A DNA stretch of 64,000 nt from Rhodospirillaceae bacterium (GCA_011523655.1 WTGH01000010.1:62001-126000); one strand, 5' to 3'; shown: positions 43,802-54,828, counted from the stretch's first letter. The notes: generated by a model not told the origin, from the sequence alone. Program-made: numbers and translations.

Positions 43802-46225
43802 ATGGACCAGTATCGGGTCGTGGTGATCGGCGGCGGGGTGGTCGGCGCCTCGGTCCTCTATCATCTGGCCAAGTATGGCTGGACCGACATTGCACTGGTC
43901 GAGCGCTCGGTGCTGACCGCCGGATCGTCCTGGCACGCGGCCGGCGGCATCCATGCGCTCAACGCCGACCCGAACATGGCGGCGCTCCAGGCCTACACCA
44001 TCGACCTGCTGCGCGAGATCGGGCCGGAATCGGGCCAGGATATCGGCCTGCACATGACGGGGGGGATCACCGTCGCCTCGGCGCCGGCGCGCTGGGAATG
44101 GCTCCAGAGCGCCTACCGCATCTTCCAGACCATCGGCATCGAGGACTGCCACCTGATGACGCCGGCGGAGATCGAGGAGCGCTGCCCGATCATGGATGTC
44201 GACGGTGTGATCGGCGGCCTGTGGGCCGACCGCGAAGGCTATGTCGATACCACCGGCACGGTTCACGCCTATGCCGGCGCGGCGCGCAAGCGGGGCGCGA
44301 CGGTGATCGAGCACAACCGGGTGCTCGAACTGAAACAGCGGCCGGACGGTTTCTGGGAGGTCGTGACCGAAAAGGGCACAATCCTCGCCGAGCATGTCGT
44401 CAACTCCGCCGGCCTGTGGGCCAAGCAGGTCGGCCGCATGGTCGGCCTCGAACTGCCGCTTTCGCCGCTGGCCCATCACTACCTGGTGACGGAGTCCATT
44501 CCGGAGATCGAGGCGCTGGACTTCGAAGTGCCGATGACGGTCGACCTGGAAGGCTTCACCTATCTGCGCCAGGACCAGAACGGCGTTCTGGTCGGCATAT
44601 ACGAGATCGACCACCAGCACTGGAATATCGACGGCGCGCCCTGGGACTACGGGTTCGACCTGATCCAGGAGGATACCGACCGGATCGCCAATGAGCTCGA
44701 ACTCGCGTTCACGCGCTATCCCGTACTCCAGCGGGTCGGCGTCAAGAACTGGGTCAACGGCGCTTTCACCTTTTCGCCCGACGGCAATCCGCTGGTCGGT
44801 CCGGTCCGCGGACTGCCGAACTACTGGCTTGCCTGCGGGGTGATGGCGGGCTTCCTGCAGGGCGGCGGCGTCGGCAAGACGCTCGCCGAATGGATGATCC
44901 ACGGCGAGCCCGAGGCCGACGCCTGGTCGATGGACATCGCGCGCTACGGGCCGTTCGCCTCGAACCGGGAATATATCCGCCAGACGACCGGCCAGTTCTA
45001 TTCGCGCCGCTTCGTGATGACCTATCCGAACGAGCAGTTGCCGGCGGGCCGGCCGCTCAACAAGGCGCCGGCCCACGACGCGATGAAAGCCGCTGGCGCG
45101 CAGTGGGGCGTGAGCTGGGGCCTGGAGGTGCCCCTCGTGTTCGCGCATTCGGGTTTCGAGGAGACGCCGACGCTCAAGCGGTCCAACGCCTTCGGCCTCG
45201 TCGGCGAGGAATGCCGTGCCGTGCGCGAGGGTGTCGGGCTGCTCGATATCACCGGCTTCTCCCGCTACGAGGTCACGGGCCGGGACGCCGAGGCCTGGCT
45301 CGACCGGACGATGGCGGGACGTTTGCCGAAACCGGGCCGGGTGCGCCTGTCGCCGATGCTGGCGCCGGACGGCCGGCTGAAGGGCGACCTGACGATCCTG
45401 AACTGGGGCGACGGTTCCTGGTGGATCATGGGTTCCTACTATCTGCGCGAATGGCACATGCGCTGGTTCCACGACCGGTTGGACCCGGTGCGCGACGGCG
45501 ACGTTCAGGTGCGGGACATTTCGGACGCGACCGTCGGCTTCTCGCTGTCCGGCCCGAAATCCCGCGACGTGCTGGCGGTGCTGACCCATGAGGATGTCAG
45601 CCACGAGGCCCTGCCGTTCATGAGCTGCCGCCTCATGGATATTGGCCTGATCCGCGCCCGGGTCGGCCGGCTCTCGGTCGCCGGCGAGCTGGGCTACGAG
45701 ATCAACTGCCCGGCCTCGGCGCATGTCACCCTGCGCGAAATGCTGCTGGAGGCAGGTGCCGCGGCCGGCATCCGCGAATACGGCTACTACGCCCTCAATT
45801 CGTTGCGGCTCGAAAAGAGCTTCGGCATATGGTCCGCCGAATTCACCCAGGGCTATACGCCGGGCATGACCGGCCTCGACCGCTGGATCTCCTTCGGCAA
45901 GGGCGGCTTCGTCGGCCGGGAAGCCGCCCTGGCGGAGCGCGAGAAGAACACCGCACCCCAGCGGCTCGTGACGCTGGAGGTCGACTCGCCCGACGCCGAT
46001 GCGTCCGGGTTCGAGCCGGTCTGGCGCGACGGCCTCCGGGTCGGATTCATCACCTCCGGCGGCTACGGCCATGTCGTCGGCAAGAGCCTGGCGATGGCGC
46101 TGGTCGAACCGGAGTTCGCCGAAGCCGGCACGGTGCTCCGGACCCATATCGTCGGCGTGGAACGCGAAGCGGCCGTGATTCCGGCCTCGCCGTACGATCC
46201 CCCGGGCGAAAAGATGCGGATGTAG
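43802..46225 (+). CDS. Dimethylglycine/sarcosine dehydrogenase-like FAD protein with GcvT domain
   Basis: FAD-dependent oxidoreductase fused to a folate-binding aminomethyltransferase domain, 807 residues. The N-terminal DAO domain has VVVIGGGVVGASVLYHLAKYG (residues 6-26) and LTAGSSWHAAGG; His45 in SSWHAAG is the position that binds FAD covalently in dimethylglycine dehydrogenase. The GcvT domain starts near 440 (FGLVGEECRAVREGVGLLDITGFSRYEV region) and runs to the end. Family members oxidise N-methyl groups and pass the one-carbon unit to tetrahydrofolate. Substrate is uncertain; there is no sarcosine oxidase gamma/delta or glycine cleavage gene. It heads a co-directional set that includes a SABATH methyltransferase. 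Confidence 0.87.
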   Translation: MDQYRVVVIGGGVVGASVLYHLAKYGWTDIALVERSVLTAGSSWHAAGGIHALNADPNMAALQAYTIDLLREIGPESGQDIGLHMTGGITVASAPARWEWLQSAYRIFQTIGIEDCHLMTPAEIEERCPIMDVDGVIGGLWADREGYVDTTGTVHAYAGAARKRGATVIEHNRVLELKQRPDGFWEVVTEKGTILAEHVVNSAGLWAKQVGRMVGLELPLSPLAHHYLVTESIPEIEALDFEVPMTVDLEGFTYLRQDQNGVLVGIYEIDHQHWNIDGAPWDYGFDLIQEDTDRIANELELAFTRYPVLQRVGVKNWVNGAFTFSPDGNPLVGPVRGLPNYWLACGVMAGFLQGGGVGKTLAEWMIHGEPEADAWSMDIARYGPFASNREYIRQTTGQFYSRRFVMTYPNEQLPAGRPLNKAPAHDAMKAAGAQWGVSWGLEVPLVFAHSGFEETPTLKRSNAFGLVGEECRAVREGVGLLDITGFSRYEVTGRDAEAWLDRTMAGRLPKPGRVRLSPMLAPDGRLKGDLTILNWGDGSWWIMGSYYLREWHMRWFHDRLDPVRDGDVQVRDISDATVGFSLSGPKSRDVLAVLTHEDVSHEALPFMSCRLMDIGLIRARVGRLSVAGELGYEINCPASAHVTLREMLLEAGAAAGIREYGYYALNSLRLEKSFGIWSAEFTQGYTPGMTGLDRWISFGKGGFVGREAALAEREKNTAPQRLVTLEVDSPDADASGFEPVWRDGLRVGFITSGGYGHVVGKSLAMALVEPEFAEAGTVLRTHIVGVEREAAVIPASPYDPPGEKMRM

Positions 46226-46356
46226 CGAGCGGTTCGGCCTGCCCGTGCAGCGGTTTTCCGCTGTTTGCCGAATCGGTTTTGCTGTTATTGAACGCGAAGC
46301 GGCCCGCCGCGGCTTCCGGGAGAATCGAGATCGTTTCGGACCGTAAACCCGACACA

Positions 46357-47334
46357 GTGATCGACGGCCTGCAATATTGCCGGTGGTCGGAAAAGATATT
46401 CCGCCAGTTGCGGTCCGGTGGCGTAGACGCGGTCCACACGACCGTCGTCTATCACGAGGACTATCGCGGCGCGCTCGGCCGGCTCGACGAATGGTCGGCC
46501 TTGTTCGACCGTTTCAGCGACCATGTCCTGCCGGGGCGAACGGCGGCCGACATCCGGCAGGCGCAGGCGGCGGGCAAGACGGCCGTTTTCTTCGGCATGC
46601 AGAATTGCACGCCCGTCGAGGACGATCTGGCCCGGATCGAAGACCTCCACGGCCGCGGCGTCCGGTTCATGCAGCTCTCCTACAATGCGAAATGCTCGCT
46701 GGCGACGGGATGGGTCGAAGAAGCGGCGGACGAGGGCGTGACGGCGAAAGGGCGGGAGGCGATTGCGGAAATGAACCGGGTCGGCATGGTCGTCGACATG
46801 TCCCACTCGGCCGAACGGTCCACGCTGGAAGCCATCGAACGGTCGGCCCGGCCGATCGTCGTGTCCCATGCCAACCCGCGGACGTGGCGGGACACCGGGC
46901 GCAACAAGTCGGAGACCGTCCTGAAGGCGCTGGCCGGGAGCGGCGGGCTGCTGGGCTTCAGCCTATACCCCCATCACATGAAGGATGGACCGGCCACGAC
47001 CCTGCGGAGTTTTTGCGACATGGCCGCCCGCACCGCCGACCTGATGGGCGCGGACCGCATCGGCATCGGGTCGGACCTCTGTCAGGATCAGCCGGATTCG
47101 GTCGTTCGCTGGATGCGCAGCGGCGTATGGGAGGACGCGAATACGCCTCCGCCGGAGAGCGTGAAACACGTCCGGTTTCCCGACATGCCGTCCTGGTTCC
47201 GCTCGAACGAGGATTTTCCCGCCATCGCCCGGGCACTGCGCGCAACGGGTTTCTCGGCGGAGGAGACCGCCGGGATCATGGGCAACAACTGGTTCCGCTT
47301 CATGGAAGCAGCCTTCGAACCGCGGGCAGCCTGA
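46357..47334 (+). CDS. M19 (renal dipeptidase) family homologue with incomplete metal site
   Basis: TIM-barrel protein of the membrane dipeptidase family, about 325 residues, probably GTG start (46357); no ATG or good ribosome site is present, so the start is uncertain. The family's first zinc motif (DGHND) is replaced by DGLQYC, and the bridging Glu (GIEGG in relatives) by Gln in FGMQNC. The two later histidines (VVDMSHS and VVSHANPR) and the Asp of IGIGSD are kept. The two-metal site of renal dipeptidase therefore cannot form as known; the protein may use one metal, another chemistry, or be non-catalytic. It is 131 nt after the DMGDH-like gene and 1 nt before the next gene. No signal peptide is evident. 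Confidence 0.8.
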   Translation: MIDGLQYCRWSEKIFRQLRSGGVDAVHTTVVYHEDYRGALGRLDEWSALFDRFSDHVLPGRTAADIRQAQAAGKTAVFFGMQNCTPVEDDLARIEDLHGRGVRFMQLSYNAKCSLATGWVEEAADEGVTAKGREAIAEMNRVGMVVDMSHSAERSTLEAIERSARPIVVSHANPRTWRDTGRNKSETVLKALAGSGGLLGFSLYPHHMKDGPATTLRSFCDMAARTADLMGADRIGIGSDLCQDQPDSVVRWMRSGVWEDANTPPPESVKHVRFPDMPSWFRSNEDFPAIARALRATGFSAEETAGIMGNNWFRFMEAAFEPRAA

Positions 47335-47335
47335 A

Positions 47336-49075
47336 TTGGTCGCCCCAGGCGACTTCCTTGCGGTTCCGGACGGCCGAACGGGGTGCACCCTGCGCTTGCG
47401 GCCGCCGGAGCAGGTCATGCGCCTCGCCCGCCTCGGCGCCTTTCACCAGACCAGGCTGAGTTTCCTCAGGGCGACGCTGCGGCATGTATGGTCCGCCGGC
47501 TTCCGCTTCGCCTACGACCGCTGGGAAATCGGCGACGACGGCGTCGGCGTCGCCGTCTATGCGGCTGCGGGACCGGAACACACCTACTCGCTGGTCTGTT
47601 TCGCCCACGACCTCGATCCTGCGATGCGCACCGACCGCGTGATCGCCGAGGCCTGGGACGCCACCTACGTCCTCTACGACGGCATTCCCGACGACAGCGA
47701 AATCGAACGGCTGCGCGCCAATACGCCAAAGCAGGAGGCGGGGCGCTATCGCCACACCGATCTGATCCTGTCCCGCACCAACAAGAGTGCGCGTCTTTTC
47801 GACAATGTCGTCGGTTGCCTGGCCGAAGGCCGGCAGCCCGAAGCGGCACGGCTTGAGGATGTCGGCTATGTCATGCGGACGACGGCGGTGTACGGCAACG
47901 GCAAATTCGGCATTGCCGACCGGCATCGCTATGCCGGCCGGGCCGGGTTCGGCGCCCCGTTCCGCATGGAAATGCTGACGGTCTGGATGATCCGCCAATT
48001 TGTCGCCGATCTCGTCGATCACATGGCGCGGGTCAGGGGCGGCTCCGGCGCCGCACCGCTCGACAGGGCGCTCCGGCGCCGGCTGGGAATCGGCAATTCG
48101 ACCGGCCTCGGCCTCGGGCCGTTCATCGTCAACCATCCCGCCCTGTTCGCGCGCTGGATCGAATGCCGTGAAACGGCGCTCGCGCGGGTTTGCGCACAGG
48201 AAAGGGCGCCTTCGGAAATCTGGACCGTGTTCCGGCAGTGGATCGGGCGCGCCAGGGCCGATGTCGCGGCGTGGATCGTGCCGGACGCATTGCAGGCGGA
48301 AAAGATCGCCCGGCTGGCGGGCGACATTGATCGGCTGGAGACGTTTTCCGCCGGTTTCGGGCCGGAAATCGCCAGGCCCTGGGCCCGGATCCGGGATTGG
48401 GCGGCGGACCGGCTGTCGCTCGAAGGCCAGGAACTCACCGTTTCGCTGCTCATCGAGCCGTATGGCGAGTTGGTCGACGACCTGGCCGACCGGATGGCGA
48501 TCGACGAACGGGAAATGGCGCCGGCCGGCCTGCCCGGAAGCGTCGGCGAAATTCTCGCGGCTGTCGAAGACCGGTACGGCTGGGCACTGGAGCCCGACTA
48601 TGCGACGCCGGATGCGCAGGCGCGCTTCTGGTACGTCTCGGCGAACAAGCTGGAGCCGCGGCTCGGCGAGCGGTGGGAGGAGGCGGGCGCTGATCTGGAG
48701 CTTCCGCTCGCGACCGGCCGCGATATCGCGGCGTGCCGCGCCGATCTGCGCAAGGCGGCGTGGGAGGAATGTCTTGCGGATTTCCTGCTGCGCCACCCGG
48801 AGCATCGCCATGTCGTCCGCCGGCTCTGCGATCCGGACCTCGGACCGTACGGCCAGATTCGCGACAATCTGGTCGGCGCCGATCTGCTGCCGCTCAACCT
48901 GCTGCGCTGCAAGCTGGCGTTTTTCGGCGCCACGCATTTCGATCCGAAATCGGATCGCTGGCTGCGCATCAACATGTTCTGCCATGCGCCCTATCCGGAC
49001 GAAACGGAAAGCCAGCCGCCGGACGACTGGATTTTTCCCCGGAGCGACGCCCAGGCCGATGCTCTGCTCCCTTAA
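47336..49075 (+). CDS. Conserved protein of unknown function (579 residues)
   Basis: I do not recognise a characterised family. The protein is soluble, with no signal peptide or membrane segment, rich in Arg, Asp, Glu and Trp. Striking blocks are RLARLGAFHQTRLSFLRA near 30, YSLVCFAHDLDP near 85, RVIAEAWDATYVLYDG near 101, KQEAGRYRHTDLILSRTNKSARLF near 127, and a C-terminal GPYGQIRDNLVGADLLPLNLLRCKLAFFGATHFDPKSDRW region (Gly-, Asn- and His-containing). The proposed start is TTG, 1 nt after the dipeptidase stop; an ATG at 47417 behind a GGAG is an alternative that keeps most conserved sequence. It overlaps the DUF3726 gene by 17 nt, so the two are likely made together. Confidence 0.75.
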   Translation: MVAPGDFLAVPDGRTGCTLRLRPPEQVMRLARLGAFHQTRLSFLRATLRHVWSAGFRFAYDRWEIGDDGVGVAVYAAAGPEHTYSLVCFAHDLDPAMRTDRVIAEAWDATYVLYDGIPDDSEIERLRANTPKQEAGRYRHTDLILSRTNKSARLFDNVVGCLAEGRQPEAARLEDVGYVMRTTAVYGNGKFGIADRHRYAGRAGFGAPFRMEMLTVWMIRQFVADLVDHMARVRGGSGAAPLDRALRRRLGIGNSTGLGLGPFIVNHPALFARWIECRETALARVCAQERAPSEIWTVFRQWIGRARADVAAWIVPDALQAEKIARLAGDIDRLETFSAGFGPEIARPWARIRDWAADRLSLEGQELTVSLLIEPYGELVDDLADRMAIDEREMAPAGLPGSVGEILAAVEDRYGWALEPDYATPDAQARFWYVSANKLEPRLGERWEEAGADLELPLATGRDIAACRADLRKAAWEECLADFLLRHPEHRHVVRRLCDPDLGPYGQIRDNLVGADLLPLNLLRCKLAFFGATHFDPKSDRWLRINMFCHAPYPDETESQPPDDWIFPRSDAQADALLP

Positions 49076-49730
49076 CGAAATTCAGGCGCTGGCGACGAAG
49101 GCGGCCCGCGGCGCCGGACTGCCCTGGGGCGTGGCCGACGAGGCCGGCCGCGCGGCGCGCTGGCTGGAAGCGCGGGGTTTCGCCGGCTTGTCGGCCCTGG
49201 AGGGGGCGCTTGATCGCCTGTCCGGGCCGGATTGGCGGCGCTGCGCCCCGATCCCCGACGGCGCCGAGTGGTGCGCGGAAGGCGGCGAGATCGACGGGCT
49301 GTGTGCCGGGATCGCGCTGGCGGACCGGGCCGGCGAGCCGATTCCGCATGCCGGCGCCGGAGCCCTGGTTCTCTCCAGGGTCCGCTGGCCGCTGCTGACG
49401 ATGCCCTTTCTTGCAACCGTCGCCGGGGCTCTCGGCGAGCGGCTGGCGGTTTCGCTCGGGCCGGACACGCCCGTGATCGGGGTCGGGCCCCACGCCGTCT
49501 CCGAAACCTGCCGCAACATTGAGGGATTGCCGTTGGCGGCATCCGTCCGGGTCGAAAGGGTGGAAGGCAGCACCGCGCTGCAAGGCGCCGCGCGGCTTGA
49601 CGGCAGCATCCCGATCGACAAAGAGGTCTATGCCCGCCTCGATCGCCGCGCTGCGCGGACGTATGTGGCCGAAAGCGCCGAATCGCAAACGCGCGGCGCG
49701 GGCGGCGGCGATCTGATCGAAACCGACTGA
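49059..49730 (+). CDS. DUF3726-family protein
   Basis: Protein of 223 residues with the DUF3726 start SLNEIQALATKAARGAGLPWGVADEAGRAARWLEARGF (residues 4-41). The first half is helical; the middle is rich in Gly and small hydrophobic residues (ALVLSRVRWPLLTMPFLATVAGALG). Function unknown. The start ATG lies inside the end of the 579-residue gene, a 17-nt overlap that indicates coupling, and the Ldh-family dehydrogenase follows after 19 nt. The repeated association of these gene types suggests DUF3726 serves the dehydrogenase or the unknown protein, but there is no direct evidence. Confidence 0.8.
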   Translation: MLCSLNEIQALATKAARGAGLPWGVADEAGRAARWLEARGFAGLSALEGALDRLSGPDWRRCAPIPDGAEWCAEGGEIDGLCAGIALADRAGEPIPHAGAGALVLSRVRWPLLTMPFLATVAGALGERLAVSLGPDTPVIGVGPHAVSETCRNIEGLPLAASVRVERVEGSTALQGAARLDGSIPIDKEVYARLDRRAARTYVAESAESQTRGAGGGDLIETD

Positions 49731-49749
49731 GCATTTGACGGGAGAGACG

Positions 49750-50766
49750 ATGGCTACCGCCGAAACCGTTGCCATGACCCTCGGCGAGATCGAAGACCTG
49801 GCCTTTCGCGCACTTCTGAAGGCCGGAACCGGGACGGCGAATGCCCGCGCTGTCGCCCGGTCCTCGGCGGCGGCCCACGCCGACGGCGTCGCCTCGCACG
49901 GACTGCCTTATGTGCCGATCTATTGCGAGCACGTCCGGTGCGGCAGGGTGAAGGGCGCTGCGGCGCCGGTCGTCAGCCAGCCCAGGCCGGCAGCGCTGGT
50001 GGTGGACGCCGGCAACGGTTTCGCCCATCCCGCGATCGATGCCGGATTCGAACGGCTGGTTCCGCTGGCAAGGGAACAGGGGATCGCCTGCCTTGCGATC
50101 CGCAATTCCTACAATTGCGGTGTCCTGGGCTGGCATTCCTTCAGGCTCGCGCAGCAGGGGCTTCTGGCGATCGGTTTTACGAAATCGCCGGCGGCCATTG
50201 CTCCGGCGGGTGGGGCCCGCAAGGTGGTCGGCACCAACCCCTTCACGGTCGCGGCGCCGGACGGCGAGGGCGAGGCGCATGTCCTGATCGACCAGAGCGC
50301 CAGCGTCATCGCGCGCAGCGAGGTCATGCAATGTGCGCGCCGGGGCGAGGCCATTCCCGAAGGCTGGGGCCTGGACGTCGAAGGCAATCCGACGACCGAC
50401 CCCGAGGCCGCCCTCGCCGGATCGATGCTGCCGAGCGGCGGCTACAAGGGCTTCGGCGTCGGGCTCATGGTCGAATTGTTTGCCGCCGCGGCAGCCGGCG
50501 CAACCCTGGGCATCCACGCCAGCCCGTTTTCCGGGACGGTCGGCGGACCGCCGGCCACCGGCCAGTTTTTCATTGCGGTCGATGCCGAGGCGACGTCCGG
50601 CGGCGCGTTTGCCGAGCGGGTGGCGGACCTGGTCGCCGCCATCGCGGAGCAGCCGGGCGCCCGAGTCCACGGCGCCGGCCGCAAGGCGGCGCGGGCCAGG
50701 GCGGCGGCCGGACCGATCGACGTCGACGCGGCCATCGTCGAAAAGGCGCGGGCGCTGGCGGCCTGA
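49750..50766 (+). CDS. Ldh-family (type 2 malate/L-lactate dehydrogenase) oxidoreductase
   Basis: NAD(P)-dependent 2-hydroxyacid or imino-acid dehydrogenase of the Ldh_2 fold, 338 residues. The family signature SSAAAHADGVASHGLPYVPIY (about residues 34-54) contains the catalytic-type His (SHG). VVGTNPFTVAAP near 159 and the LPSGGYKGFGVGLMVELFAA block near 225 line the cofactor and active site. The family includes delta1-piperideine/pyrroline-2-carboxylate reductases, ureidoglycolate and sulfolactate dehydrogenases. The neighbouring amine dehydrogenase makes a cyclic-imino or keto-acid substrate reasonable. GGGAGAG before the ATG at 49750 decides the start over a TTG at 49735. Confidence 0.88.
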   Translation: MATAETVAMTLGEIEDLAFRALLKAGTGTANARAVARSSAAAHADGVASHGLPYVPIYCEHVRCGRVKGAAAPVVSQPRPAALVVDAGNGFAHPAIDAGFERLVPLAREQGIACLAIRNSYNCGVLGWHSFRLAQQGLLAIGFTKSPAAIAPAGGARKVVGTNPFTVAAPDGEGEAHVLIDQSASVIARSEVMQCARRGEAIPEGWGLDVEGNPTTDPEAALAGSMLPSGGYKGFGVGLMVELFAAAAAGATLGIHASPFSGTVGGPPATGQFFIAVDAEATSGGAFAERVADLVAAIAEQPGARVHGAGRKAARARAAAGPIDVDAAIVEKARALAA

Positions 50767-50796
50767 AATCGTCATCCGTCAACGGAAGGACCGGAC

Positions 50797-51900
50797 ATGA
50801 CAGGCGGGTCCAGCATCCGCGACGTCGCCATGAAAGGCGCCGGCTATTATTCGAGTTCGACCGCCGGCGCGAAAGACGTCATCGACGGTGCGACCCCGCT
50901 GGTTCTGGACGCCGCAGATGCGCTGCCGATCCCGGAGGACGGCCGCCCGATCACGGTGGCGGACATGGGCTGCGCCGACGGCGGCACCTCCATGGAAATG
51001 ATCGGCAAGGTGCTGGCGGCCCTGCGCCGGCGGGCGCCGGGACATCCGATCCAGATGGTCTACACCGATTTGCCGCGCAACGATTTCAGCCAGTTGTTTC
51101 AGAACGTTCACGGGCTGAGCGATCTGGCGAGCCCGTTTCCGGACATGCCGGACGTCTACTGCTTCGCGAGCGGCACGTCGTTTCACAAGGGCATATTCCC
51201 GCCCGGCAGCCTGCATCTCGGCTTTTCGGCCACGGCGTCGCACTATGTCAGCGAGAAGCCCTGCGCGATCCCCGATCACGTCCACATGGTCGGCGCCACC
51301 GGCCCGGTGCGCGCGGCCTACGAAGCGCAGGGCGCGCGCGACTGGGAGGCCATGCTGCTCCAGCGCGCCCGGGAACTCGTGAGCGGCGGTCGTCTGGCCC
51401 TGTTCAATTTCGGCATCGACGAGGCAGGCCGTTACCTCGGCCATACCGGTGGAGTCAGCATGTTCGATACGTTCAACGAACTGTGGCGCGATCTGGCCGA
51501 GCGCGGCGCGATCGCGCCTGAAGAGTATCGCGACACGAATTTCGCCCAGTGCTATCGCACCGTCGATCAGTTCTGCGCCCCGTTGACCGACCGTGAAAAT
51601 GCGGTGTACCGGGCCGGTCTGCGCTTGGAGCATGTCGAGACTCGGGTCGTCCGCTGCCCCTATGAACGCGATTTCTCCGATCACGGCGACGCCGACCGCT
51701 TTGCCGCAGAGTATATCCCGACCCTGCGGTCGTGGAGCGAGCACACGTTCGTTGCCGGCCTGTCGCCGGCCCGCCCCGCTGCAGAGCGACAGGCTATCGT
51801 CGACCGGTTTTACGACAACTACGAGAACCGGGTCCGCGAAAACCCGGACGGCCACGCCATGGACTATGTCCACATCTATCTGGTGTGCGAAAAAGTATGA
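50797..51900 (+). CDS. SABATH-family carboxyl/N-methyltransferase
   Basis: SAM-dependent methyltransferase of the SABATH family, 367 residues. The family is known from plant enzymes that methylate salicylate, jasmonate, indole acetate (carboxyl O-methylation) or xanthines (N-methylation). Diagnostic blocks match the plant enzymes: MKGAGYYSSSTAGAK near residue 12, the SAM loop VADMGCADGGTSMEMI near 54, YTDLPRNDFSQLF near 88 (plant NDLPGNDFN), and SFHKGIFPPGSLHLGFSATASHYVS near 128 (plant GSFY-RLFP--SLH--SS-SLHWLS). The Trp of the plant substrate pocket is Tyr here. It is 30 nt after the dehydrogenase gene, last in the set. Confidence 0.87.
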   Translation: MTGGSSIRDVAMKGAGYYSSSTAGAKDVIDGATPLVLDAADALPIPEDGRPITVADMGCADGGTSMEMIGKVLAALRRRAPGHPIQMVYTDLPRNDFSQLFQNVHGLSDLASPFPDMPDVYCFASGTSFHKGIFPPGSLHLGFSATASHYVSEKPCAIPDHVHMVGATGPVRAAYEAQGARDWEAMLLQRARELVSGGRLALFNFGIDEAGRYLGHTGGVSMFDTFNELWRDLAERGAIAPEEYRDTNFAQCYRTVDQFCAPLTDRENAVYRAGLRLEHVETRVVRCPYERDFSDHGDADRFAAEYIPTLRSWSEHTFVAGLSPARPAAERQAIVDRFYDNYENRVRENPDGHAMDYVHIYLVCEKV

Positions 51901-51977: not shown

Positions 51978-52015
51978 ATTCGGAAATTTGAACATTTCGC
52001 GCGGCGGGTTATGTT
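51978..52015 (+). promoter_or_regulatory. Promoter and SqrR/BigR-type operator upstream of the sulfide sensor gene
   Basis: ATTCGGAAATTTGAAC (51978-51993) matches the ATTC-N8-GAAT operator form at 7 of 8 fixed positions. Its right half is part of a TTGAAC -35 element (51988-51993), with TATGTT (52010-52015) 16 nt further on as -10. A bound repressor would cover the -35, the arrangement expected for autorepression. The only other site of this kind in the window is at 37342-37357. Confidence 0.55.
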
Positions 52016-52109
52016 GTGCAGCGGTCCCGGCTGGGCTGCGTGTCCCGGTGCGCGGCCGAGCGGTGTGCCTGAATCCGTCCGAAATCGAGAATTGCCGGGG
52101 AGCCGTTGG

Positions 52110-52421
52110 GTGGCCATCGACACGATCGATACCGAGGCGATGGCGCGCAGTGCCGAAGAGGCGGCGCGGTTCCTGAAGACGATCGGCAATCCGAAACGGA
52201 TGCTGATCCTCTGCTATCTGGTGAATTGCGAACGCAACGTCATGGAACTGGAGCAGCTGCTCGACGTGCGGCAGTCCAGCATTTCGCAGGAACTGGCCCA
52301 GCTGCGCCGCAGCGGCATGGTCGCGACGCGGCGCCGGCGCAGGAATGTCTACTACCGGATCAGCGATCCGAAGGTCGAGGCGATCATCGGCGCGGTCCAC
52401 AAGGCCTTTTGCTCAACCTAG
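52110..52421 (+). CDS. ArsR-family sulfide/persulfide-responsive regulator, BigR/SqrR type
   Basis: Winged-helix repressor of 103 residues, GTG start with GGGGAG 7 nt upstream. The recognition part is MELEQLLDVRQSSISQELAQLRRSGMV (about residues 45-71). Two cysteines, C35 (MLILCYL) and C101 (KAFC), sit exactly 66 residues apart, like C42 and C108 of BigR, which form the sulfide-sensing di- or tetrasulfide bridge. Metal-binding motifs of ArsR or SmtB are absent. It precedes an unknown gene and fccA-fccB and has a matching operator in its own promoter, so it most likely derepresses sulfide oxidation when persulfides rise. Confidence 0.85.
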   Translation: MAIDTIDTEAMARSAEEAARFLKTIGNPKRMLILCYLVNCERNVMELEQLLDVRQSSISQELAQLRRSGMVATRRRRRNVYYRISDPKVEAIIGAVHKAFCST

Positions 52422-52498
52422 AATATCTCCCGACCGGATATGATCGCACGGGAGGTCTTCTCCGGCCGCAAGGCGCAGCCTGACGTCGCGGGCGGATT

Positions 52499-53005
52499 GT
52501 GACGCCCGCCCTGGCCGAAACGATGGCCGCCTGGGACGGCAAGTCCGCCGCCGCATTGCAGTCGGCCTACGAGCGCCACCATGCCGAAGAGGGTTTCGTC
52601 GCGACGATCCTCGAGCATCTCGCAGAGGTCAAATTGCAACGGGCGGCGACCTGGCTGCTCAAGAAACACCTTGAATCCGACAATACCCTGAGCGCTGCCG
52701 AGTGCCGTGCGCTTGTCGGCGGGCTTTCCCTCCAGGAGCACTGGGAGAGCAAACTGCATATGCTCCAGTGCATCCCTTATTTGAGTATCGCTGAGGAGGA
52801 TTGCGCCGCTCTGGAGAGGTTTCTGGAGGCCGGTGTCAGGAGCGACAGGAAATTCGTCAGGGCCTGGGCCTACAACGGTTTCAACGAACTGTCGCTTCGC
52901 TTCCCGCGATATCGGAAAATGACGGACCGCATGCTCGCCCGGGCGAGCGAATCGGAAGCGGCATCGGTCCGGGCAAGAATTCGCAACATCCTGAAGACTC
53001 GCTGA
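52499..53005 (+). CDS. Uncharacterised helical protein in the sulfide module
   Basis: Protein of 168 residues read from GTG (an ATG at 52523 is an alternative). I do not recognise a family. It appears all alpha-helical, with an alternating pattern suggesting two or three HEAT-like repeats (RFLEAGVRSDRKFVRAWAYNGFNELSLRF is the clearest). Three cysteines (C69, C90 and C102, approximate) are present. There is no signal peptide, so it should be cytosolic, unlike the exported products of fccA and fccB. It lies 77 nt after the regulator and 225 nt before fccA; the latter gap shows no second operator. Confidence 0.65.
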   Translation: MTPALAETMAAWDGKSAAALQSAYERHHAEEGFVATILEHLAEVKLQRAATWLLKKHLESDNTLSAAECRALVGGLSLQEHWESKLHMLQCIPYLSIAEEDCAALERFLEAGVRSDRKFVRAWAYNGFNELSLRFPRYRKMTDRMLARASESEAASVRARIRNILKTR

Positions 53006-53230
53006 ATTTTTCGCCGAATCGACTTCTGGCGGCGCCGGCGCTGAAGCCGGGTCGAGGGCAGCGCCCCGTCGGACGAAGCGTGACGGAGGAAGGTGCCGCC
53101 CGGAAATTCGGCTTTTTTCCGCTGCCGCCATGACGAAATCGCTTCCAACATCGGCGCACGCGGCATAGCATAGAGGTACCGCGCCGGGACGCCGGCTGTT
53201 CCGGTTCGACGAAAACGATGGAGGAAGCGC

Positions 53231-53542
53231 ATGAAACTGGGATATGGCCCGGCTGCCGCCGGGCTCATCGCTGCGGCCCTGATCGCCGTCGCACCGGTTG
53301 GCGCTCTGGCGGAATCGTCCGGGCGCAATCTCGCCCTGTCCTGCTTCAGCTGCCACGGCCCGGCGGGCAAGAGCCCGGATACGATTCCGGGGATCGCGGG
53401 CAAGAGCAAGGCGTTTATCGTCCAGGAAATGATCGGTTTCCGCGACGGCAAGCGGAAATCCACGGTGATGCAGCGGATCGGCAAAGGCTATAGCGATGCG
53501 GAAATCCGCGCGCTCGCCGGTTACATTGCCGGCCTGAAATAG
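53231..53542 (+). CDS. fccA: Monohaem cytochrome c, FccA-like subunit
   Basis: Periplasmic electron-accepting subunit for the sulfide dehydrogenase flavoprotein, 103 residues. A Sec signal peptide ends at about residue 27 (ALA-E). The single haem site is C38-FS-C41-H42, and Met in [10 protein letters not shown] near 79 is the likely sixth ligand. It is much shorter than the dihaem FccA of Allochromatium, matching the monohaem SoxE/FccA-like forms. A GGAGG-like site (GAGGAAGCGC) precedes the ATG. fccB follows after 11 nt. Confidence 0.88.
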
Positions 53543-53553
53543 GAGTTCGCGAC

Positions 53554-54828
53554 ATGAGCAGACTGACACGACGCGAATTTACTGCGGCGGCCGGCGCCTC
53601 GGCAGCTGCGTTCGCCGCCCCTGCGGTAGCCCAGGGAAAGGGCGGCCGGATCGTTGTGGTCGGCGGCGGCTTCGGCGGCGCGAGCGCGGCGAAATACGCC
53701 AAGATGTTCGGCGGCAACGCCGTCGAGGTGACGCTGATCGAGCCGAACAAGACCTTCTACACCTGCCCGTTCAGCAACCTCGTTCTGGGCGGCCTGCGCG
53801 ACATCGGGTCGATCGGGCACGGCTTCGACGCCATGGCGAAGCGTGGCGTCAAGGTGGTCCACGATTCGGTGACCGGGGTCGATCACGCCAAGAAAACGGT
53901 GACGACCGCCGGCGGCGCTACGATCGGCTGGGACAAGCTGATCCTGTCGCCGGGCATCGATTTCCAGTGGGGCAAGATCAAGGGCTACGACGCGGCGGCG
54001 GCGGAGAAGATGCCGCACGCCTGGAAGGCCGGTCCGCAGACCGTCGTGCTGCGCAAGCAGCTCGAGGCGATGGATGACGGCGGCGTCGTCGTCCTGGCAC
54101 CGCCGGGCAACCCGTTCCGCTGCCCGCCCGGGCCGTACGAGCGGGCCAGCATGATCGCCCATTACCTCAAGACCAAGAAGCCGAAGTCCAAGGTCCTGAT
54201 CGTCGATTCCAAGGACAAGTTCTCCAAGATGCCCCTGTTCATGGAGGGCTGGAAGAAGGTCTACGGGCCGATGATCGAATGGATCCCGCAGAAGAAGGAC
54301 GGCCCGGTTACCGAGGTGGATGTCGCCAACAACACGGTCATCACCGAGTTCGGCGCCAAGCACAAGGGCGCGGTGGTCAACCTGATTCCGCCCCAGAAAG
54401 CGGGCGACGTGGCCGATATCGCCGGCGTGACCAACAAGTCCGGCTGGGCGCCGGTCGACCGGCGGACCTTCGCATCGACCATGCAGAAGGATGTCCATGT
54501 GATCGGCGACGCCTCGATCGCCTCGCCGATGCCGAAGTCCGGCTTCTCGGCGAGCAGCCAGGGCAAGGTGGTGGCCGCTGCGGCTGTCGATGCGCTGGCC
54601 GGCAAGAACCCGGCCGATCCGTCTTTCGCCAACACCTGCTACAGCCTCGTGGCGCCGGAGTACGGCATCTCGGTCGCCAAGGTCTATGCGTGGCAGGGCG
54701 GCAAGCTGGTCGGCGTCAAGGGCTCCGGCGGCGTCAGCCCGAAGGGCGCGGCCGCCAGCTTCCGCGCCGAGGAAGCCCGGTACGCCAGCGGCTGGTACGC
54801 CAGCATCGCGGCGGACATCTGGGGATAG
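53554..54828 (+). CDS. fccB: Flavocytochrome c sulfide dehydrogenase, flavoprotein subunit (FccB/SoxF)
   Basis: Periplasmic FAD enzyme that oxidises sulfide and passes electrons to cytochrome c; 424 residues. The twin-arginine signal is visible ([23 protein letters not shown]). The FAD motif is [15 protein letters not shown] near 34. Cys71 (FYTCPFSN) matches the cysteine that binds FAD covalently, and Cys190 (FRCPPGPYE) and Cys362 (ANTCYSL) match the redox-active disulfide pair of Allochromatium FccB (Cys42, Cys161, Cys337 in mature numbering). It shares an operon with fccA and is closed by a strong terminator. The complete cysteine set argues for a working enzyme. Confidence 0.92.

Follow-up and report, generated by a model that had tools for sequence, protein, structure and literature searches.

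A SABATH-bearing variant of a conserved marine gene module that may turn over an N-methylated pyridine carboxylate

We analysed a 64,000-nucleotide (nt) window of the genome of a Rhodospirillaceae bacterium (GCA_011523655.1 WTGH01000010.1:62001-126000), within which all positions are counted, and located six open reading frames (ORFs) (Table 1). They encode a GcvT-fused N-demethylase, an M19-like protein, a protein of 579 residues here termed P579, a DUF3726 protein, an Ldh_2-family oxidoreductase (Ldh) and a SABATH methyltransferase. A sequence-only reading of this DNA had described six genes on one strand, the last five spaced by 1, -17, 19 and 30 nt, and both statements were reproduced exactly; the gap between the GcvT-fused gene and the M19-like gene is 131 nt with the preferred GTG start. 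We found that the set is a real, conserved operon and a recurring module, not a chance cluster. On balance, we think it probable that this is a SABATH-bearing version of a catabolic module of marine bacteria whose substrate is an N-methylated pyridine-2-carboxylate (homarine or one of its close relatives), degraded by way of N-methylglutamate to glutamate. Spacing and conservation are what suggest that the set is co-transcribed. No sigma-70-like promoter was found in the operon stretch, and no Rfam RNA family or riboswitch reached the gathering threshold there, so control by a riboswitch or structured RNA was rejected.

Table 1. The six genes of the set and their positions in the window
Gene product	Position	Strand	Basis
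FAD (flavin adenine dinucleotide)/folate N-demethylase of dimethylglycine-dehydrogenase type, 807 residues, peripheral member	43802..46225	+	Pfam DAO, FAO_M, GCV_T, GCV_T_C
M19-like amidohydrolase subfamily, 325 residues	46357..47334, GTG start	+	Pfam Peptidase_M19, conservation in relatives
P579, 579 residues, without known family, module core	47336..49075, TTG start	+	Profile, fold and distribution searches
DUF3726 protein, 223 residues, predicted diverged and shortened Ldh_2 fold, obligate P579 neighbour	49059..49730	+	PF12525 5e-19
Ldh_2-family oxidoreductase, nearest to delta1-piperideine-2-carboxylate reductase (DpkA)	49750..50766	+	Pfam Ldh_2 4e-88
SABATH SAM (S-adenosylmethionine)-dependent methyltransferase, marks a distinct module clade	50797..51900	+	Pfam Methyltransf_7 (PF03492) 3e-32

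The distribution of P579 and DUF3726 was examined in 385 alphaproteobacterial genomes. P579 was present in 53 and DUF3726 in 43, and in all 43 of the latter DUF3726 was the next gene after P579, in the same orientation, the profile matches being separated by no more than 119 nt. The two proteins were fused as a single ORF in three loci, two from Mesorhizobium and one from Rhodoferax (L032, L101 and L070); a Mesorhizobium fusion protein is WP_199201047. This obligate adjacency, together with the fusion, argues for a single physical complex. Scanning genome contigs with a sequence pattern revealed at least 582 P579 relatives; by their titles, the best 80 of these came mainly from marine groups (Rhodobacterales, SAR116, gammaproteobacteria and some Acidimicrobiales), and the closest relative among the matches listed was sponge-derived (Spongia_Bin9, by title). 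The survey thus showed that the genes are frequent neighbours in other genomes; the rarity of this linkage that the sequence-only reading had named as grounds for refutation was not seen. One small alphaproteobacterial genome carried a P579 copy interrupted by several stop codons, probably a pseudogene (G077, contig C43:750-2302).

Neither by sequence nor by fold did P579 show a relative among the known proteins in Pfam, NCBIfam or PDB, and homology to a known protein was rejected because all three gave no match. Its AlphaFold2 model (mean predicted local distance difference test score (pLDDT) 82, predicted template modelling score 0.86) gave no match to PDB folds (best E 0.45, prob 0.02), and many charged residues were invariant among 38 diverse sequences. 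When the DUF3726 model (pLDDT 90) was compared with PDB using Foldseek, the top 27 matches were all Ldh_2 proteins (best E 6.6e-4, prob 1.00, query TM 0.35-0.52), while profile-profile comparison with the operon Ldh proteins aligned only 57 N-terminal columns (probability 70%). In DpkA (1wtj), a member of the Ldh_2 family, the SHG motif carries the catalytic His. The predicted fold of DUF3726 overlaps in part with that of Ldh_2, but the protein is shorter, lacks the SHG motif and gave no PF02615 match, and its model points to a diverged, shortened and probably non-catalytic Ldh_2 relative. No paper on DUF3726 was found in the literature searched.

The M19-like protein, which had been called a broken dipeptidase, matches the PF01244 profile (E 7e-71), and its nearest solved structure is the amidohydrolase 2i5g. 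The dipeptidase metal site is indeed lost: compared with the M19 renal dipeptidases and 2i5g, both metal-ligand His and one Asp are kept, but the HxD and the bridging Glu are replaced, leaving the binuclear site incomplete. The gene is not decayed, however, because the replacements, IDxLQYxNWS at the HxD and GxQN at the bridging Glu, recur in almost all of the 72 relatives compared, which argues for a conserved subfamily; judged by its residues, the protein may be a mononuclear or metal-free amidohydrolase. The operon Ldh protein is a full-length Ldh_2 family member whose nearest solved relative is DpkA. For the 807-residue protein, the best solved relative was dimethylglycine dehydrogenase (4pab, E 3e-159), with which it shares the domain layout and the flavin-linking motif WHAAG, but its P579 neighbourhood suggests another N-methyl amino acid as substrate. 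This GcvT-fused gene was linked to the module in three of four congeners and in 8 of 87 P579 loci, about the copy-number expectation outside the window's clade, and it was therefore rejected as a conserved core member. The window's own genome (G000) has about ten places with GcvT-domain oxidoreductase or sarcosine-oxidase-alpha-like genes, a large N-methyl catabolic repertoire.

The 87 P579 loci comprised the window, six loci on plasmids and the best 80 of the at least 582 scan matches; close relatives are over-represented among them, and some contigs are truncated. Their neighbours were DUF3726 (79 loci), the M19-like protein (72), aldehyde dehydrogenase (44, 42 of them clear orthologues), LysR (36), Ldh_2 (28), a BCCT carrier (22) and an ABC ATPase (17). 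In the commoner loci the module is accompanied by LysR, by an aldehyde dehydrogenase and by betaine transporters of the BCCT or ProU type; those in Rhodobacterales carry LysR and aldehyde dehydrogenase, M19-like, P579, DUF3726 and Ldh, and no Ldh match was found in the SAR116 loci. Annotated carriers include Phaeobacter inhibens DSM 17395, Ruegeria TM1040, Sulfitobacter, Pararhizobium and Mesorhizobium, and the window shares with this common form the core of M19-like, P579 and DUF3726. In P. inhibens, P579 and DUF3726 are PGA1_RS19010/19015, within the stretch PGA1_RS19000-19015; the TM1040 locus is TM1040_RS02315-02345. The module aldehyde dehydrogenase scored best, below the cut-off, against 2,5-dioxovalerate and alpha-ketoglutaric semialdehyde dehydrogenases, two C5-semialdehyde enzymes, and so fits a five-carbon semialdehyde. 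Betaine transporters, N-demethylase genes and the piperideine-carboxylate-reductase-like Ldh support the earlier suggestion that an N-methylated carboxylate is turned over. In HTCC2255-type loci (L077, L078, L105 and L109), nadA, nadB and nadC and a gene for a 1070-residue Fer4/Fer2 protein that may be a self-sufficient reductive dehalogenase lie upstream of the module and divergent from it. This places quinolinate synthesis next to a presumed pyridine-carboxylate pathway, in one clade only, and was not used as evidence.

SABATH is a methyltransferase family mainly of plants. The window's protein matches the Methyltransf_7 profile, carries the SAM motif with a conserved D56-G63 region, and belongs to a bacterial subfamily whose members in other genera match it at 45-63%. 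This subfamily shows His-Tyr (or His-Trp) in place of the Gln-Trp of the nearest solved carboxyl methyltransferase; an invariant His precedes the substrate-binding Trp/Tyr, as in purine N-methyltransferases, a residue comparison that is only suggestive. P579, DUF3726 and SABATH were linked in all four congeners examined and the full six-gene set in two; of the other two, one lacks Ldh, and for the other the stretch read contains no DAO gene. The six SABATH loci, whose hosts belong to different orders, all grouped in a single eight-member clade of the P579 tree; its two remaining members are close window relatives, and the contig of one of them stops short of the SABATH position. In L048, L060 and L066 the gene order is Ldh-SABATH-P579, unlike in the window, and the association of SABATH with the module has thus survived rearrangement between lineages. 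None of the six SABATH loci had an orthologous aldehyde dehydrogenase or BCCT gene; for aldehyde dehydrogenase this exclusion gave a nominal Fisher p of 0.027 with loci that are not independent, and no close orthologue was found in the window genome (best match 34%, compared with 60-91% among orthologues).

PF03492 occurred in 13 of the 385 genomes, and outside the window's genus six of eight carriers also had P579 (p 7e-5), unlinked. Two of these SABATH genes, in L138 and L140, have TRAP transporter genes beside them, and in L066 such genes stand just upstream of the module; on this we base the tentative proposal that a pyridine carboxylate is imported and then N-methylated by SABATH. SABATH and the GcvT-fused enzyme are variable additions to the module and not part of its core. 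A SABATH gene on a Rhizobium plasmid was rejected as a module member, having no P579 next to it. In L138 and L140, related genomes with the P579 module elsewhere, SABATH also adjoins gamma-glutamyltransferase-like and 3-hydroxyisobutyrate-dehydrogenase-like genes. Downstream of the SABATH-type module in L048 lies a gene for a thiamine pyrophosphate (TPP)-dependent enzyme, with a similar ORF in L060 (Hyphomicrobiales), and beyond it in L048 a pyruvate-dehydrogenase-E2-like ORF recognized by eye.

A second N-methyl enzyme was found near the module. In TM1040, Pseudophaeobacter, Marivivens and an uncultured alphaproteobacterium, the alpha subunit of a SoxBDAG-type tetrameric dehydrogenase was encoded no more than about 10 kb from P579; alpha subunits near P579 were 65-74% identical to the Pseudophaeobacter copy and were often accompanied by a GlxA/AraC regulator, as in Roseobacters. 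One locus (L163) reads SoxB-D-A-G, GlxA, LysR, aldehyde dehydrogenase, M19-like, BCCT, P579, DUF3726 and Ldh, with SoxD and SoxB assigned by size and reading. In a 1.2 Mb genome (L162), the tetrameric operon lies a few kilobases upstream of M19-like, P579 and DUF3726 without the GlxA/AraC regulator, and in a congener of the window (L161) GlxA and the tetrameric operon stand downstream of the SABATH-form module. The window's own genome encodes, on another contig (C19), an alpha subunit 68% identical to the copy at the Pseudophaeobacter locus, which may belong to an N-methylglutamate dehydrogenase or to a sarcosine oxidase. The alpha subunit was present in all of 40 genomes with P579, in two or more copies in 39, compared with 12 of 40 genomes without P579 (two or more copies in 2). 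It lay within 10 kb of P579 in 5 of 40 genomes where 0.8 were expected (p ~0.001). Shared ecology could explain the enrichment; the proximity is harder to explain so.

In Ruegeria pomeroyi the mgdABCD genes have an AraC-type regulator next to them, and Mgd is reported to take part in homarine catabolism, with Ferrer-Gonzalez et al. 2026 as the source cited (PMC13390433). The sequence-only reading knew of no described pathway with this gene content. That is probably no longer right, as a pathway for homarine (N-methylpicolinate) was published in 2026 and its reported N-methylglutamate dehydrogenase step matches the kind of gene found beside the module. The work of Ferrer-Gonzalez et al. 2026 (Nat Microbiol 11:1531) reportedly names the homarine operon homABCDER, is said to describe an operon of five conserved genes with a regulator in Rhodobacterales, SAR11 and SAR116, and reportedly takes the route to N-methylglutamate and, through N-methylglutamate dehydrogenase, to glutamate. 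The common form of the P579 module, likened to this operon by its reported gene content, is most likely the same operon. The window form differs in lacking aldehyde dehydrogenase, LysR and BCCT and in having SABATH and a GcvT-fused demethylase.

From the observed gene content, adjacency, fusion, clade structure and fold predictions, we infer the substrate, all reactions and the role of SABATH as follows. P579 and DUF3726, acting as one complex with DUF3726 as a non-catalytic Ldh_2-derived scaffold, would attack or open the N-methylpyridinium ring, and the DpkA-like Ldh enzyme would act on a cyclic C=N intermediate. By chemical reasoning, conversion of homarine to N-methylglutamate would require loss of ring carbon C6, and C5-C6 cleavage would give an N-formyl or similar C-N bond and a semialdehyde. 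The M19-like amidohydrolase would hydrolyse this C-N bond (amide or N-formyl), and in the commoner form the semialdehyde dehydrogenase would produce the second carboxylate; since the window genome has no close orthologue of it, another enzyme may serve this step, or the route may differ. The N-methyl group would be recovered as a folate one-carbon unit by the GcvT-fused enzyme, by the tetrameric dehydrogenase elsewhere in the genome, or by both. Least certain, SABATH may N-methylate a non-methylated pyridine carboxylate such as picolinate, thereby feeding the pathway. A trigonelline-type oxygenase route was set aside, as no TgnA/B-like gene was identified among the recurrent neighbours; no further search was made.

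Several observations weigh against a homarine-type pathway in the window. The match to the homarine operon is one of reported gene content and of the Mgd link, and the present data are of genes alone. The alpha subunit of the tetrameric type is also known from sarcosine oxidase, and a shared ecology may account for its enrichment; with GcvT-fused enzymes so common in these genomes, their closeness to the module in other lineages counts for little. Among solved SABATH structures a fatty-acid O-methyltransferase is the nearest, and the SABATH clade has an SH-aLRT (Shimodaira-Hasegawa-like approximate likelihood ratio test) support of 85 only. As the window lacks the aldehyde dehydrogenase (best 34%), and LysR and betaine carriers beside the operon, its substrate may differ. 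It is possible, though we consider it doubtful, that the SABATH clade acts on another N-methylated or N-heterocyclic acid while retaining the ring-attacking core, with SABATH esterifying the carboxylate of the substrate or of an intermediate. The missing aldehyde dehydrogenase and BCCT of the common form, the carboxyl methyltransferase as nearest solved SABATH and the long P579 branch to the window's own clade (1.13 changes per column) would all suit such a shift, but the core genes are unchanged, the invariant P579 motifs are kept and the tetrameric dehydrogenase adjoins the module in a congener.

With a lower probability still, the common operon and the window form alike degrade not homarine but another betaine or N-methyl heterocycle, for instance an N-methylated proline or piperidine acid. 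Betaine carriers, the DpkA-like Ldh, the semialdehyde dehydrogenase and the N-demethylase would suit more than one N-methyl cyclic amino acid; an entirely new and strongly conserved enzyme, as P579 would be, is however expected more for an aromatic than for a saturated ring, and Mgd is reported for homarine (PMC13390433). A role of the genes in making or modifying a secondary metabolite for a sponge host, rather than in feeding central metabolism, is very improbable, because, although the closest relatives among the matches listed are sponge-associated metagenome-assembled genomes by title and SABATH enzymes usually produce methyl esters or N-methyl natural products, the core is common to free-living marine bacteria of many orders, beside uptake systems and catabolic dehydrogenases.

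Homarine has been reported among the most abundant small metabolites of surface-ocean particles (PMC8269262), with concentrations later revised downward (PMC10134881). No enzyme assigned to attack on the stable homarine ring was found in the literature searched. P579 with DUF3726 provides a single testable candidate for this ring attack in about one in seven of the sampled alphaproteobacteria. If the proposed role of SABATH is true, the window would encode a degradation route whose first step adds a methyl group. The bolder combination, in which P579 and DUF3726 form a new enzyme class with a new fold that dearomatises N-methylpyridinium carboxylates and the SABATH clade methylates to degrade (import, N-methylation, ring opening and folate-dependent demethylation), appears to us rather unlikely as a whole. 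The module family has probably already been described functionally as homarine catabolism. The present work adds the prediction of DUF3726 as a stripped-down Ldh_2 fold, the lack of a solved-fold match for P579, the conserved M19-like subfamily and the SABATH clade; what P579 does chemically is a question worth testing.

The genes flanking the set look like housekeeping or unrelated genes. Partly from reading translations, gyrA-like and coaD-like ORFs were recognized upstream, and an ArsR-type regulator, sulfide-dehydrogenase-like ORFs and an rpsB-like ORF downstream. Just downstream of the set, an ArsR/BigR-like regulator, a small cytochrome c and a flavocytochrome-c-sulfide-dehydrogenase-like ORF (window 52011-54828) together resemble a sulfide-oxidation set.

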